Assembly (NCBI RefSeq): GCF_004355225.1
Contig: NZ_CP037933.1
Coordinates: 3,038,001-3,102,000 of the forward strand
DNA from: Flavobacterium nackdongense
GTDB lineage: Bacteria; Bacteroidota; Bacteroidia; Flavobacteriales; Flavobacteriaceae
Length of the DNA: 64,000 nucleotides
Direction: 5' to 3'
The notes below the pieces were generated by a model that saw nothing but the letters and a program-made list of their open reading frames with translations, made no database searches and was not told the origin of the DNA. The position numbers were made by a program, and so were the translations under genes. This document shows positions 5,046 through 8,893 of the stretch, one piece after another. The number at the start of each line of letters is the position of its first letter. Within the stretch, counting starts at the first letter, position 1.

Positions 5046-6296
5046 TTACAATCCAAAAGCAGCCTTCACTTCATCAACAAAATCTAATTTTTCCCAAGTA
5101 AACAATTCAACAGTAACTGTTTTTGTTTCTCCACCCGGAGCAGAAAAAGTTTTGGTTACCGTTTCTGGTGTTCTTCCCATATGTCCGTAAGCGGCGGTTT
5201 CGCTGTAAATAGGATTTCTCAATTTCAATCGTTGCTCTATAAAATAAGGACGCATATCAAAAATAGCTTCTACTTTTTTAGCAATTTCACCATTGGTCAA
5301 ATTCACTTTCGATGTTCCGTAAGTTTCAACAAAAATACCCATAGGTTGTGCCACACCAATAGCATATGAAACTTGAACCAAAATCTCGTCGGCGACACCA
5401 GCTGCAACAAGGTTTTTAGCAATGTGACGCGTAGCATAAGCAGCACTTCTATCTACTTTACTTGGATCTTTTCCGGAGAAAGCACCACCACCGTGAGCGC
5501 CTTTTCCTCCATAGGTATCCACAATAATTTTTCTTCCTGTCAATCCGGTATCGCCGTGAGGTCCGCCAATTACGAATTTCCCGGTTGGGTTAATATGGTA
5601 GGTGATTTTATCATTGAATAAGTGTGCGTACTGCGGGTATTTTAGTTTAATTCTTGGAATCAAAACAGAAACCAAATCCGTTTTGATTTTGGCCAACATT
5701 TCAGCTTCCGGCGCAAAATCATCGTGTTGAGTCGAAATAACAATCGCATCAATTCGTTGCGGTTTGTTATCGTCAGAGTATTCCAAAGTTACTTGTGATT
5801 TTGCATCAGGACGCAAATAGGTGATTTCCGTATTTTCCCTTCGTACATTAGCCAATTCGATCAATAAAGCGTGAGCAATATCTAAGGCCAATGGCATATA
5901 GTTTTCAGTTTCATTAGTAGCGTAACCAAACATCATTCCTTGGTCACCCGCGCCTTGGTCTTCTTTATTGGCTCTGTCTACACCTTGATTAATATCAGCA
6001 GATTGTTCGTGAATTGCTGAAAGAACACCACAAGAATTGGCTTCAAACATATATTCGCTTTTCGTATATCCAATTTTTTTGATGACATCTCTGGCAATAG
6101 TTTGAACGTCTAAATAGGTGTTCGATTTTACTTCACCAGCAAGAATGACTTGCCCAGTGGTAACTAAAGTTTCACAAGCTACTTTCGACTCCGGGTCAAA
6201 TGCCAAGAAATTATCAATTAATGCGTCCGAAATTTGATCAGCTACTTTGTCTGGATGTCCTTCACTCACTGATTCTGACGTAAATAAATAAGCCAT
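5046..6296 (-). CDS. metK: S-adenosylmethionine synthetase
   Basis: A 416-residue enzyme that makes S-adenosylmethionine from methionine and ATP in the cytosol. The signature motifs are all present: GHPDK at residues 13-17, GAGDQG at 115-120 and the GGGAFSGKD loop at 269-277. Length is close to the bacterial norm (about 380-420). The gene is the end point of the methionine pathway laid out to its right. Its leader carries a SAM-II riboswitch (6364-6413) just downstream of a good TTTG-N18-TACATTTG promoter, so SAM should repress its own synthesis. It is divergent from metY and monocistronic. Confidence 0.97.
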
Positions 6297-6363
6297 AATA
6301 CTATATTTTTAAATTAAGCGAGGAAGAAAAAAACGATTGCAGGGAAATACTAAAGGAGAGTTG

Positions 6364-6413
6364 CTGCTTTAGCATTTTTTTAACGAGGTTGCAATCAGTT
6401 CAAATTTTTCCTC
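6364..6413 (-). ncRNA. SAM-II riboswitch in the metK leader
   Basis: On the minus strand, stem P1 is GAGG (6413-6410) with CCTC (6388-6385). Its loop carries TTTGAACTGATTGCAA, and the tail carries GTTAAAAAAATGCTAAAGCAG. The SAM-II hallmarks TTGCAA, the A-rich linker and GCTAAAG are in the right order. The pseudoknot pairing CUG...GCA with UGC...CAG is satisfied. It lies about 68 bases before the metK ATG, and the predicted transcript start is only a few bases upstream of it. Known SAM-II switches act on translation of methionine genes; the exact off-switch here is inferred. Confidence 0.85.
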
Positions 6414-6426
6414 TAATATTCGGCTG

Positions 6427-6612: not shown

Positions 6613-6681
6613 ATGAATTTAAATGTTTGCAATATTTATAAATCGATGCAGGAAAAATCCTGTGGGTCGCCTATTGTCTAA
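6613..6681 (+). CDS. Candidate leader peptide 1 upstream of metY (Met/Cys-containing, 22 aa)
   Basis: ATG at 6613 to TAA at 6679-6681 encodes 22 residues with two Cys and two Met, including the phrase YKSMQEKSC. A hairpin with a T-run begins 28 bases after the stop (6710-6738). The codons for Cys17-Gly18 (TGTGGG, 6661-6666) are exactly complementary to CCCACA (6713-6718) in the terminator's 5' arm, which offers a switchable antiterminator. The layout, including the 28-base gap, is repeated by leader 2. Too short for homology; the call rests on architecture. Confidence 0.45.
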   Translation: MNLNVCNIYKSMQEKSCGSPIV

Positions 6682-6709
6682 ATTTTAAATTAAAATGATA
6701 TAACAAAAG

Positions 6710-6738
6710 CCTCCCACAAGAACGGGAGGTTTTTTTTT
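6710..6738 (+). terminator. Terminator hairpin 1 in the metY leader
   Basis: CCTCCC (6710-6715), an eight-base loop and GGGAGG (6724-6729) are followed by nine T. There is no plus-strand gene upstream for it to end, except the candidate leader peptide, so it is best read as an attenuator. Confidence 0.75.
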
Positions 6739-6770
6739 GAAACTTATTTACAGCCAATTGCATCAATACA

Positions 6771-6860
6771 ATGAAGAAATTACAACAAAAACAAATGAAC
6801 AAATACACTGTCAAATCGATGATTTGTGCAAAATCGATGATGTTTGTTTGTGTCAGGTGA
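6771..6860 (+). CDS. Candidate leader peptide 2 upstream of metY (Met-rich, 29 aa)
   Basis: ATG at 6771 to TGA at 6858-6860 encodes 29 residues ending VKSMICAKSMMFVCVR. Five of the 29 residues are Met (including the initiator) and two are Cys, in front of a gene for homocysteine and methionine synthesis. An internal ATG at 6795 would give 21 residues. A terminator hairpin starts 29 bases after the stop (6890). The nine-base string AAATCGATG (Lys-Ser-Met) occurs twice here and once in leader 1. Classical attenuation by ribosome stalling at Met or Cys codons is the natural interpretation. Confidence 0.6.
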   Translation: MKKLQQKQMNKYTVKSMICAKSMMFVCVR

Positions 6861-6889
6861 ATCCGAAAGTAGAAGTTATAACAAAACTT

Positions 6890-6929
6890 AAAACCCTTTT
6901 GGATATTTTCTAAAAGGGTTTTGTTTTTT
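6890..6929 (+). terminator. Terminator hairpin 2 (attenuator) directly before metY
   Basis: An 11-bp perfect stem, AAAACCCTTTT (6890-6900) with AAAAGGGTTTT (6912-6922), is followed by GTTTTTT. It ends 57 bases before the metY ATG, so it must be bypassed for metY to be transcribed from the leader promoter. Confidence 0.75.
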
Positions 6930-6985: not shown

Positions 6986-8266
6986 ATGAGTACACAAAAA
7001 TTCGCAACAAACGCTTTACACGCAGGGCACGACACGACTAAAACAGCAGGAACTAGAGCGGTACCTATTTATCAAACTAGTTCGTATGTATTTAATAATT
7101 CGGATCACGCGGCCAATTTATTTGGACTTGCCGAAGCGGGATTTATATACACCAGATTAAATAATCCGACGAATGATATCTTGGAGCAACGTTTAGCCGC
7201 GCTCGAAGGCGGAATTGCTGCAGTAGTAACCGCATCTGGAACTGCTGCCATTGCCACCTCGTTATTGGTAATGTTGAAAACAGGGGATCATATTGTAGCG
7301 TCCAATAGTTTATACGGCGGGACGTATAATTTATTGAGTGCCACGCTACCGCGATTGGGAATCACAACAACGTTCGTAGATCCATCCGATGCCAGTAATT
7401 TTACCAAAGCTGCCAATGAAAATACTAAAGTGTTTTTCGCAGAAAGTTTAGGAAATCCAAAATTAGATGTTTTGGATTTGAAAGCGATTGCAGCCGAAGC
7501 CAAGGCATTTAAAGTCCCATTTATTGTGGACAATACAGTGGCTACACCCTATTTGTTAAACCCAATCGAGCACGGTGCAAATATTGTAATTCATTCCTTG
7601 ACCAAATACATTTCAGGAAATGGAACCTCACTCGGAGGAGTGGTTATTGATGCGGGAACCTTTGATTGGAGCAGCGGAAGATTTCCTGAATTTACGGAAT
7701 CCTCGCCAAGCTATCACGGTTTGATTTATCACGAAGCTTTGGGAGCTGCCGCTTTTATTGCCAAATTCAGAATCGAAGGTTTGCGGGATTTTGGTGCAGC
7801 TTTGAGCCCATTCAACGCTTTTCAGATTATTCAAGGATTAGAAACCTTAGAAGTTCGCGTCAAGAAGCACAGTGAAAATGGCTTGGAATTAGCAAAATGG
7901 TTAGAAAATCAAGAGCAAGTCGCTTGGGTCAATTATCCGGGTTTACAGTCCAGTAAATATCACAATTTGGCAACACAGTATTTACCTAAAGGGCAAAACG
8001 GATTGCTAACTTTCGGCCTGAAAGGAGGCTTCGAAGCAGCCAAGAAAGTAGCCGATGAAACCAAGATTTTTTCGCTCTTGGCCAACATTGGAGACACCAA
8101 ATCTTTGATTATTCATCCAGCGAGTACCACGCATCAGCAGTTGACAGATGCAGAGCAGGTCGCCACAGGAGTTACCAAGGATTTAATTAGACTCTCGGTT
8201 GGACTCGAAGATATTGAAGATTTAAAGGCGGATTTAAAAGCCGTATTCGAAAATTTAGAAGTATAA
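6986..8266 (+). CDS. metY: O-acetylhomoserine sulfhydrylase
   Basis: A 426-residue PLP enzyme of the Cys/Met metabolism family. It is expected to make homocysteine directly from O-acetylhomoserine and sulfide. The PLP lysine is Lys207 in HSLTKYISGNG. The N-terminal THALHAGHD-like start and the length of about 425 favour MetY over the shorter cystathionine synthases (about 390). The substrate would come from the MetX domain encoded next, and the sulfide from the cys block. Expression is probably set by the tandem leader attenuators at 6613-6929. The methionine block continues downstream after a small ORF and the SAM-I riboswitch. Confidence 0.93.
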   Translation: MSTQKFATNALHAGHDTTKTAGTRAVPIYQTSSYVFNNSDHAANLFGLAEAGFIYTRLNNPTNDILEQRLAALEGGIAAVVTASGTAAIATSLLVMLKTGDHIVASNSLYGGTYNLLSATLPRLGITTTFVDPSDASNFTKAANENTKVFFAESLGNPKLDVLDLKAIAAEAKAFKVPFIVDNTVATPYLLNPIEHGANIVIHSLTKYISGNGTSLGGVVIDAGTFDWSSGRFPEFTESSPSYHGLIYHEALGAAAFIAKFRIEGLRDFGAALSPFNAFQIIQGLETLEVRVKKHSENGLELAKWLENQEQVAWVNYPGLQSSKYHNLATQYLPKGQNGLLTFGLKGGFEAAKKVADETKIFSLLANIGDTKSLIIHPASTTHQQLTDAEQVATGVTKDLIRLSVGLEDIEDLKADLKAVFENLEV

Positions 8267-8347: not shown

Positions 8348-8560
8348 ATGAAAACTCTAAAATATATAACAAACGCAACAGTTCAGTTTTTCAAAAGTTT
8401 GAATAGTAAAACAAAAGTAATAACTGAAGACCTAGACCACTTTGAATTTACATACCCAAAATTGGGAATCAATTTAAACCACGGTCCAGAATCTAAAAAA
8501 TCAGCAAAATCTTTGTTGACTCAAATGTATTCCGAAGAAAATGAAATCCTTTTTATCTAA
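8348..8560 (+). CDS. Small hypothetical protein (70 aa)
   Basis: A 70-residue ORF starts 81 bases after metY. It has no signal peptide, membrane segment or recognisable domain. It is lysine-rich at the start and acidic at the end (MYSEENEILFI). Codon use looks like its neighbours and there is no overlapping gene. It lies before the long leader of the SAM-I-controlled gene. It could be a small conserved flavobacterial protein or chance; I do not recognise it. Confidence 0.4.
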   Translation: MKTLKYITNATVQFFKSLNSKTKVITEDLDHFEFTYPKLGINLNHGPESKKSAKSLLTQMYSEENEILFI

Positions 8561-8679: not shown

Positions 8680-8707
8680 TGCCATTAAGTTCACGAACGT
8701 ACTGAAA

Positions 8708-8812
8708 TGTTATAAAGAAAGCCCGAGGGAATAGACCCATTGAAAGCTTAGCAACCCTTTGCCAACGAAGAAGGTGCTACATTCTATCCCGATTTATCGG
8801 GAACAGATAACA
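8708..8812 (+). ncRNA. SAM-I (S-box) riboswitch before the metX-thrA fusion gene
   Basis: P1 is TGTTAT (8708-8713) with ATAACA (8807-8812). The S-box core follows in order: GAGGGA, TAGACCC, TGAAAGCTTAGCAACC, GGTGCTA with ATTC, and a P4 hairpin CCCGAT/ATCGGG at 8788-8801. All the conserved blocks are present at normal spacing over 105 bases. A short hairpin ACTAG/CTAGT (8823-8839) with TTTCTTTCT follows and may be a weak terminator. The gene controlled starts at 8894. Confidence 0.92.
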
Positions 8813-8893
8813 ACAAGAATTCACTAGCCTACTTCTAGTTTTCTTTCTAATATTTCCAAACACAAATCAAAAAAATCTAAAAAGATTTGAAAA

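Follow-up and report, generated by a model that had tools for sequence, protein, structure and literature searches.

Ribosome-mediated attenuators of the trp/his/leu type are found in Proteobacteria and Actinobacteria, and polycysteine uORFs are present in mycobacteria. The usual view of methionine genes is that they respond to SAM, by means of a riboswitch or a repressor. Several reports come closer to the locus described here. Cys-rich leader peptides precede cys operons of Actinobacteria, with no obvious intrinsic terminator according to the portion of the report at hand (PMC1262725). Among the Bacteroidota, leader-peptide attenuation was suggested in 2021 for amino-acid operons of Flavobacterium psychrophilum (main-text section of PMC9723704), and short ORFs resembling leader peptides have been observed in Bacteroides thetaiotaomicron (excerpt of PMC7366714). 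The met operon of Xanthomonas has a regulatory 5'UTR, and the available part of that text mentions no leader peptide (PMC6230763). Finally, there are known cases in which RNA sensors upstream of one gene have replaced each other (partial text of PMC2965389).

The locus lies in the window, that is, the whole 64,000-nucleotide stretch of Flavobacterium nackdongense DNA analysed here. The metK gene (5046-6296, minus strand) is divergent from an ORF with homologues at 6986-8266 on the plus strand, which we take, after the original prediction, to be metY (O-acetylhomoserine sulfhydrylase-like), the regulated gene in our proposal. The metK-metY intergenic region contains two short ORFs on the plus strand, each followed by an intrinsic terminator and of the lengths first announced, 22 and 29 codons. 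L1 (6613-6681, stop codon 6679-6681; MNLNVCNIYKSMQEKSCGSPIV) has three Met/Cys codons, Cys6 (6628-6630), Met12 (6646-6648) and Cys17 (6661-6663); L2 (6771-6860, stop codon 6858-6860; MKKLQQKQMNKYTVKSMICAKSMMFVCVR) has Met9, Met17, Cys19, Met23, Met24 and Cys27. Describing both as rich in Met and Cys suits L2 (6 of the 28 residues after the start) but overstates the case for L1, where the content is modest (3 of 21). The L1 terminator (6705-6738, plus strand) is a hairpin with a T-run at 6730-6738, and that of L2 (6889-6929, plus strand) a stem at 6889-6923 with its T-run, 56 nt before metY; the ends at 6738 and 6929 agree with those given earlier. The original prediction had also noticed that TGTGGG (6661-6666) is complementary to CCCACA (6713-6718), and this pairing, supported by folding and by covariation in relatives, is the 2:3 antiterminator of L1. 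Folding and pair counts further place a 1:2 hairpin within L1, with an outer helix (GCAATA 6629-6634 with TATTGT 6672-6677) and an inner one (GCAGGA 6648-6653 with TCCTGT 6658-6663). No clear antiterminator had been recognised for the second unit; there is one, however, directly 3' of the L2 stop codon, where ATCCGAAAG (6861-6869) pairs with CTTTTGGAT (6896-6904) on the plus strand, around a small hairpin (6873-6877/6885-6889), and none of 100 shuffles equalled it.

We propose, with a probability of about 0.86, that L1 and L2 are two ribosome-mediated transcription attenuators placed in series on one mRNA upstream of metY, and that they sense the charging of Met- and Cys-tRNA. In this scheme the polymerase would transcribe L1 while a ribosome translates it. 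With Met-tRNA (or Cys-tRNA) charged, the ribosome would reach the stop codon and cover the 5' arm of the antiterminator; the terminator would then form and transcription would end. A ribosome waiting at a Met codon or one of the early Cys codons, at least about 15 nt short of the arm, would let the antiterminator form first and lead to read-through. L2 would repeat the decision taken at L1, metY being made only if both terminators are passed, and two units in series should give a low leak and a steeper response. Translation of the leaders, premature termination, sensing of tRNA charging and the logic of two units in series are all predictions of this model, which was built from the ORFs and terminators observed, from stems that covary and exclude one another, and from the position of the codons and their match to the pathway.

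The original prediction had staked its reading on the conservation of these elements in relatives. In a scan of named genomes we kept the best 80 of 542 metY loci, a set biased to close relatives and nearly all Flavobacterium. A unit was called when a short ORF with at least 3 Met/Cys preceded a terminator, a threshold that L1 of the window just reaches. All 81 loci (the window and the best 80 of 542) have one or more such units in the 1 kb preceding metY; in three of them less sequence is available there or near it. In the same 81 loci the units were sorted into 52 L1, 65 L2 and four unrelated hairpins, the latter set aside as class X (opposite-strand or chance hairpins); both L1 and L2 are found in 36 loci, L2 only in 29 and L1 only in 16. 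All 52 L1 units, including a degenerate one (L026), and all 65 L2 units were aligned. As an estimate of chance, we counted terminator-like hairpins in the sequence flanking the 80 loci (989,526 nt over the two strands): there are 436, of which 52 follow a short ORF with at least 3 Met/Cys and 32 one with at least 5. By eye, 31 of these 32 belong to the same leader family, the exception being L082. Taking the remaining 21 of the 52 as chance occurrences, one would expect about 2 such units in the roughly 81 kb before metY.

A duplication of one unit into L1 and L2 is plausible. The nine-mer AAATCGATG occurs once in L1 (6640-6648) and twice in L2 (6813-6821 and 6831-6839), as the original prediction had stated. 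In L006 this Lys-Ser/Ala-Met nine-mer reads AAAGCCATG, both at its L1 position and at the second of its L2 positions, as if the two units had changed together. Covariance models of the two units (R1 for L1, R2 for L2) match each other's sites, mostly far more weakly than their own, and shared Met/Cys codons could explain these cross-matches. The near-equal gaps of 28 and 29 bases first put forward were rejected as evidence of duplication: the stop-to-stem distances are 23 and 28 nt as the stems are drawn here, and they range among relatives from 17 to 39 nt for L1 and from 20 to 45 nt for L2.

Met and Cys make up 15.7% and 9.9% of the residues after the start in L1 and 19.3% and 18.3% in L2, against 1.4% and 0.3% in five proteins of the window, i.e. 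25.6%, 37.6% and 1.7%, respectively, for the two together. Met is tied to the reading frame (at most 0.8% in other frames), and Cys less so (frame +1 gives 11.8% against 9.9% in frame for L1, and 11.4% for L2); both TGT and TGC are in use. Codon diversity at the first, second and third positions is 0.30, 0.39 and 0.47 in L1 (37 ORFs) and 0.10, 0.16 and 0.14 in L2 (23 ORFs). The third-position changes suggested as a check of coding are thus seen in L1, and L2 shows no such trend. An A stands at position -3 of the start in 47 of 52 L1 and 52 of 65 L2 units. This is the initiation context favoured in F. johnsoniae, in the portion of the study at hand (PMC6847099), and it makes leader translation without a Shine-Dalgarno site reasonable. 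The promoter-like motif TAnnTTTG is common within 150 nt before L1 (20 of 52 loci) and rare before L2 (3 of 65), with a background of 0.085 per 150 nt, which is consistent with one transcript for both units; the window's own candidate promoter lies 107 nt before L1.

The covariation check also turned out in favour of the prediction, as the terminator and antiterminator stems of both units covary. Two-sided changes are found in 5 of 10 pairs of the L1 terminator stem and in 3 of 12 pairs of the L2 stem. For the L1 antiterminator, 93.7% of the cells are paired (at most 61.6% in slid controls) and the covariation score is 0.346 against 0.157 after shuffling, with 0 of 500 shuffles as high, while two other measures, the number of pairs with two-sided change (292/500) and pair types (260/500), are not above shuffles. 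The L2 antiterminator, taken with its inner hairpins, is paired in 91.3% of the cells (slid controls at most 62.4%; 0/500 shuffles); its two-sided changes sit in the inner hairpins, the outer arm showing none, and its pair types are not above shuffles (140/500). The L1 1:2 hairpin is paired in 80.2% of the cells, slid controls reaching at most 48.5%, with pair types again not above shuffles (488/500). When terminator arms were swapped within a class (L026 left out), the own arm was better just slightly, because the arms within a class are alike. As many as 9 of 100 shuffles matched the core helix of L1 in the window, which is not striking alone, and the support for the L1 antiterminator therefore comes from covariation in relatives. 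More than 5 of 100 shuffles were as good in 13 of 52 L1 and 15 of 65 L2 units.

Folding of the window's leader indicates how a choice between the stems could be made. With the L1 RNA free from 6661, as it would be with a ribosome waiting at Met12, the antiterminator folds at -13.8 kcal/mol before the right arm exists; with the ribosome on the stop codon it is absent and the terminator remains (-16.3 kcal/mol). A ribosome at Cys6 would free the inner 1:2 hairpin too and the antiterminator is then just partial; Met12 is therefore the better sensor in L1 of the window. In the absence of a ribosome, the 1:2 hairpin of L1 can hold the antiterminator arm, according to folding and pair counts. The L2 antiterminator folds at -8.6 kcal/mol against about -19 for its terminator. 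As soon as the right arm is present the terminator appears in every fold run, full-length folds included; the switch must therefore be kinetic and decided during transcription, as in classical attenuators. One could imagine that the terminators are real and that the ORFs act by reinitiation or translational coupling, without any terminator/antiterminator choice. The metY leader does contain short ORFs, and ribosome reinitiation at leader peptides has been proposed (in the excerpt seen of PMC4833913). Nevertheless, such a scheme leaves aside a covarying antiterminator kept at a near-fixed place, the 56 nt that separate the L2 terminator from metY, and the pathway-matched codons described below, and we consider it very improbable.

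Codon placement agrees with the attenuation reading. Among 48 L1 units (L012, L017, L026 and L054 left out), 39 have their last Met codon beginning 14-16 nt upstream of the arm, a distance close to that of the leading edge of a stalled ribosome; among 63 L2 units (L061 and L080 left out), the corresponding distance is 20-24 nt in 50. L2 ORFs often have Cys codons just 1-7 nt from the arm as well; a ribosome stalled there would prevent antitermination, so that the earlier Met/Cys codons must be the sensors. In L1 of the window, one of the three Met/Cys codons lies inside the antiterminator arm. Moreover, the L1 arm motif GCAGAG/GCAGGG starts in frame 0 in 25 of 52 units and in frame 2 in 13, the other 14 having a variant arm, while a CTATTG-like stretch after the arm stands in one and the same frame in 11 units of the frame-0 group and 10 of the frame-2 group. 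The arm is thus kept as RNA in an ORF that stays open.

We then searched R1 and R2 in 150 Flavobacterium genomes (E up to 1e-3). R1 matches were found in 108 genomes and R2 matches in 117, a close metY (E up to 1e-150) being present in 84. Many genomes have several matches, some of which are weak matches of one model to the other unit. The window's genome has a single strong R1 match, at metY (the next at E 0.04), and R2 matches at metY and at weaker sites from E 1e-4; in the family, R1 was found in 38 of 199 genomes at E 1e-3. Among 30 R1 loci that were fetched (L086, L102-L130), 15 contain metY, 2 metX-thrA without metY, 2 only metK, and 11, all weak, none of these. In L211 (6651-9497), L1 is separated from L2-metY by a TonB-dependent receptor gene, and R1-to-metY distances suggest the same arrangement in several other genomes.

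A further 40 stretches, mostly away from metY, were chosen and fetched; they give no measure of frequency, and their downstream genes were identified from their resemblance to window genes or to each other, with Pfam for a few. The leaders precede metX-thrA, metH, an OsmC gene followed by metH, a metB-like gene, cysH, a TonB receptor gene, a gene for a nitrite/sulfite reductase-like protein, a gene for a cysE-like hexapeptide protein followed by one for a cysK-like enzyme, a gene for an OsmC-like protein followed by an ABC transporter ATPase gene (L219) and, once, ilvN. Leaders of cysH/cysE-like genes carry Cys (e.g. NMCCCMG or VCCMC), and those of metB and metH carry Met (e.g. MMMQMMMM, MAMMMM). 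The Cys:Met count is 45:25 in 13 cysH/cysE-like leaders and 5:28 in 6 metB/metH leaders (Fisher 2.5e-6, rank test 0.001), P values that overstate the independence of related sequences, in leaders that were grouped and trimmed by hand. This comparison left out the leaders of metX, OsmC-metH, the TonB receptor, the reductase-like gene and metY, as well as those of L219-L222, L225 and L226. OsmC-metH leaders, which fit less well, and several metX leaders are poor in Met/Cys. Leader units with few Met/Cys codons also stand before the OsmC-like and ABC transporter-like genes of L219 and L220, and in L233, a met locus, another small gene lies between leader and metH. At the one ilvN locus (L230, 2230-2640) there are two leaders rich in Ile (MKNIINITFIIITIIIR, MKNLVQNSIIISIIIIRIT), both having a terminator of their own, which suggests that the tandem plan is used beyond sulfur genes. 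The control codons thus follow the pathway, Cys for cysH/cysE-like genes, Met for metB/metH and Ile in the single ilvN case, and the best reading is that the leaders are part of a sulfur regulon. Together with conservation and covariation, this supports the Met/Cys-sensing attenuation that was originally predicted.

The same data bear on the idea that Met/Cys-rich peptides use their thiols to sense a metal, copper for instance, or the redox state, stalling or peptide binding then controlling the terminators. Motifs such as MMMCC and CCC do look metal-binding-like, and a copper-sensing nascent exported protein provides a precedent, as the excerpt at hand describes it (PMC9973294). However, many of the downstream genes are for Met/Cys biosynthesis, Cys is almost absent from the leaders of metB (L216, L231) and metH (L218), Ile takes the place of Met/Cys before ilvN, and the C-terminal part of the peptide shifts frame while the RNA arm is kept. 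We therefore regard this explanation as highly unlikely.

The question of SAM sensing arises from the neighbourhood itself. In the window, Rfam identifies a SAM-II riboswitch of metK (6359-6419, minus strand) and a SAM-I riboswitch (8707-8813) of the metX-thrA fusion gene downstream of metY. We examined metY upstream regions in 60 other genera of Flavobacteriaceae and 20 genomes outside the family; the 60 genera came from 134 genomes outside the genus with a metY match, the most similar first, five being passed over (some near a contig end). Before metY and in the same sense, SAM-I was found in 50 of the 60, Met/Cys leaders in 5 (L131, L139, L143, L148, L165), neither in 5 and both in none; a hit in L187 was dropped, its ORF lying about 825 nt upstream with no Met/Cys run at a locus that has SAM-I. 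Given this prevalence of SAM-I, the two hairpins might overlap a riboswitch for SAM or another small molecule that went unrecognised. Yet the plus strand of the metY leader (6613-6929) gave nothing in Rfam at gathering score, SAM-I, SAM-II and T-box included, none of the 20 leader-type relatives scanned has SAM-I in the 1 kb preceding metY, and the conserved parts are the ORF and the switch arms. A hidden riboswitch is accordingly the explanation to which we give the least credit.

Outside the family, SAM-I is found at 17 of 20 metY loci. In two of these genomes, L195 and L205, a Met/Cys leader with a terminator (MKIQIKNTSGKLNMAMCMCCMCNIGPR and MKRIQKHICRLCCMCMCMPHLQPED) stands directly upstream of SAM-I, in what appears to be a two-sensor leader; in L205, SAM-I is some 700 nt from metY and another gene may come first. 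Five others (L199, L200, L207, L209, L210) have a Cys-rich ORF before metY (e.g. HMMCCCCCCMPFGA, QQPCCMCICCPCC) for which a terminator was not found; it is downstream of SAM-I in four of them and resembles polycysteine uORFs. In L204, a Met/Cys-rich ORF about 890-990 nt before metY lies inside a long inverted repeat, followed by SAM-I. A scan of 20 loci gave 11 in which the order is L1-L2 pair, SAM-I, metX; L103 has L1 then SAM-I, and leaders precede metX with no SAM-I match in L212, L213, L214, L216 and L223. Ten of the 11 series loci encode, between the L1-L2 pair and SAM-I, a small protein ending like NSLLFLMYSKENETLFI. A 70 aa small protein of the window (8348-8560), without a Pfam match, ends in SLLTQMYSEENEILFI and lies 5' of SAM-I and metX; ORFs with a similar end are also present between L2 and metY in many relatives.

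Altogether, we lean, with some reserve, towards a broader scenario in which a movable pair of tRNA-charging attenuators runs the sulfur-amino-acid regulon of Flavobacterium, with Met and Cys codons swapped for each operon (metY, metB, metH, cysH, cysE). The pair would have displaced an ancestral SAM-I at metY and would act in series with SAM-I at metX-thrA, where one RNA would check Met/Cys-tRNA twice and then SAM; Met/Cys-rich leaders adjoining SAM-I also exist elsewhere in the Bacteroidota (L195, L205). As metY is apparently read via tRNA charging in one genus and via SAM in most sister genera sampled, this locus offers a detailed view of how one sensor is exchanged for another. These leaders may also yield codon-level rules for attenuation in bacteria where Shine-Dalgarno sites are lacking and, for study in a laboratory strain, a natural RNA leader with two or three sensors.

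Attenuation as such is of a known kind, the trp/his type, and only the Met/Cys case is new as far as our searches show: we found no Met-specific attenuator of the leader-peptide type in the literature searched, subscription papers and supplements lying outside its scope. The original prediction knew of no amino-acid-sensing attenuation of methionine genes in Bacteroidota. That statement stands in the literature searched for Met/Cys, but attenuation in the phylum had been proposed for F. psychrophilum; that work shares with ours the genus and the general idea, its main-text section names no Met/Cys genes, and an overlap with its SI D9/Table S7 is possible (PMC9723704). As in trp/his/leu-type attenuators, the units have a leader ORF with control codons, a 1:2 hairpin (in L1), a 2:3 antiterminator and a 3:4 terminator; at the sequence level we find cognate control codons (weak in L1 of the window, 3/21), a terminator, an exclusive antiterminator and the codon placement. 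They differ in their Met and Cys control codons, in the two units in series, in the lack of a Shine-Dalgarno site and in belonging to Bacteroidota. With the Cys leaders of Actinobacteria they share Cys codons in an ORF upstream of sulfur genes, as far as the portion at hand tells (PMC1262725). Unlike these leaders and the polycysteine uORFs, which have no obvious intrinsic terminator, each unit here has both terminator and antiterminator and thus falls outside the polycysteine class. SAM-I (RF00162) precedes metY in most sister genera sampled and senses SAM rather than charged tRNA; it is absent before metY here. The tandem attenuators of Salmonella mgtCBR also place two short ORFs in one leader, but they respond to other signals and control other genes, according to the excerpt seen (PMC3641672), whereas our units are alike in plan and both Met/Cys. 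Finally, the part consulted on hisS describes RNA sensors replacing each other before one gene, a T-box and a His leader in Firmicutes (PMC2965389); here the sensors concerned are SAM-I and Met/Cys leaders, and the gene is metY.
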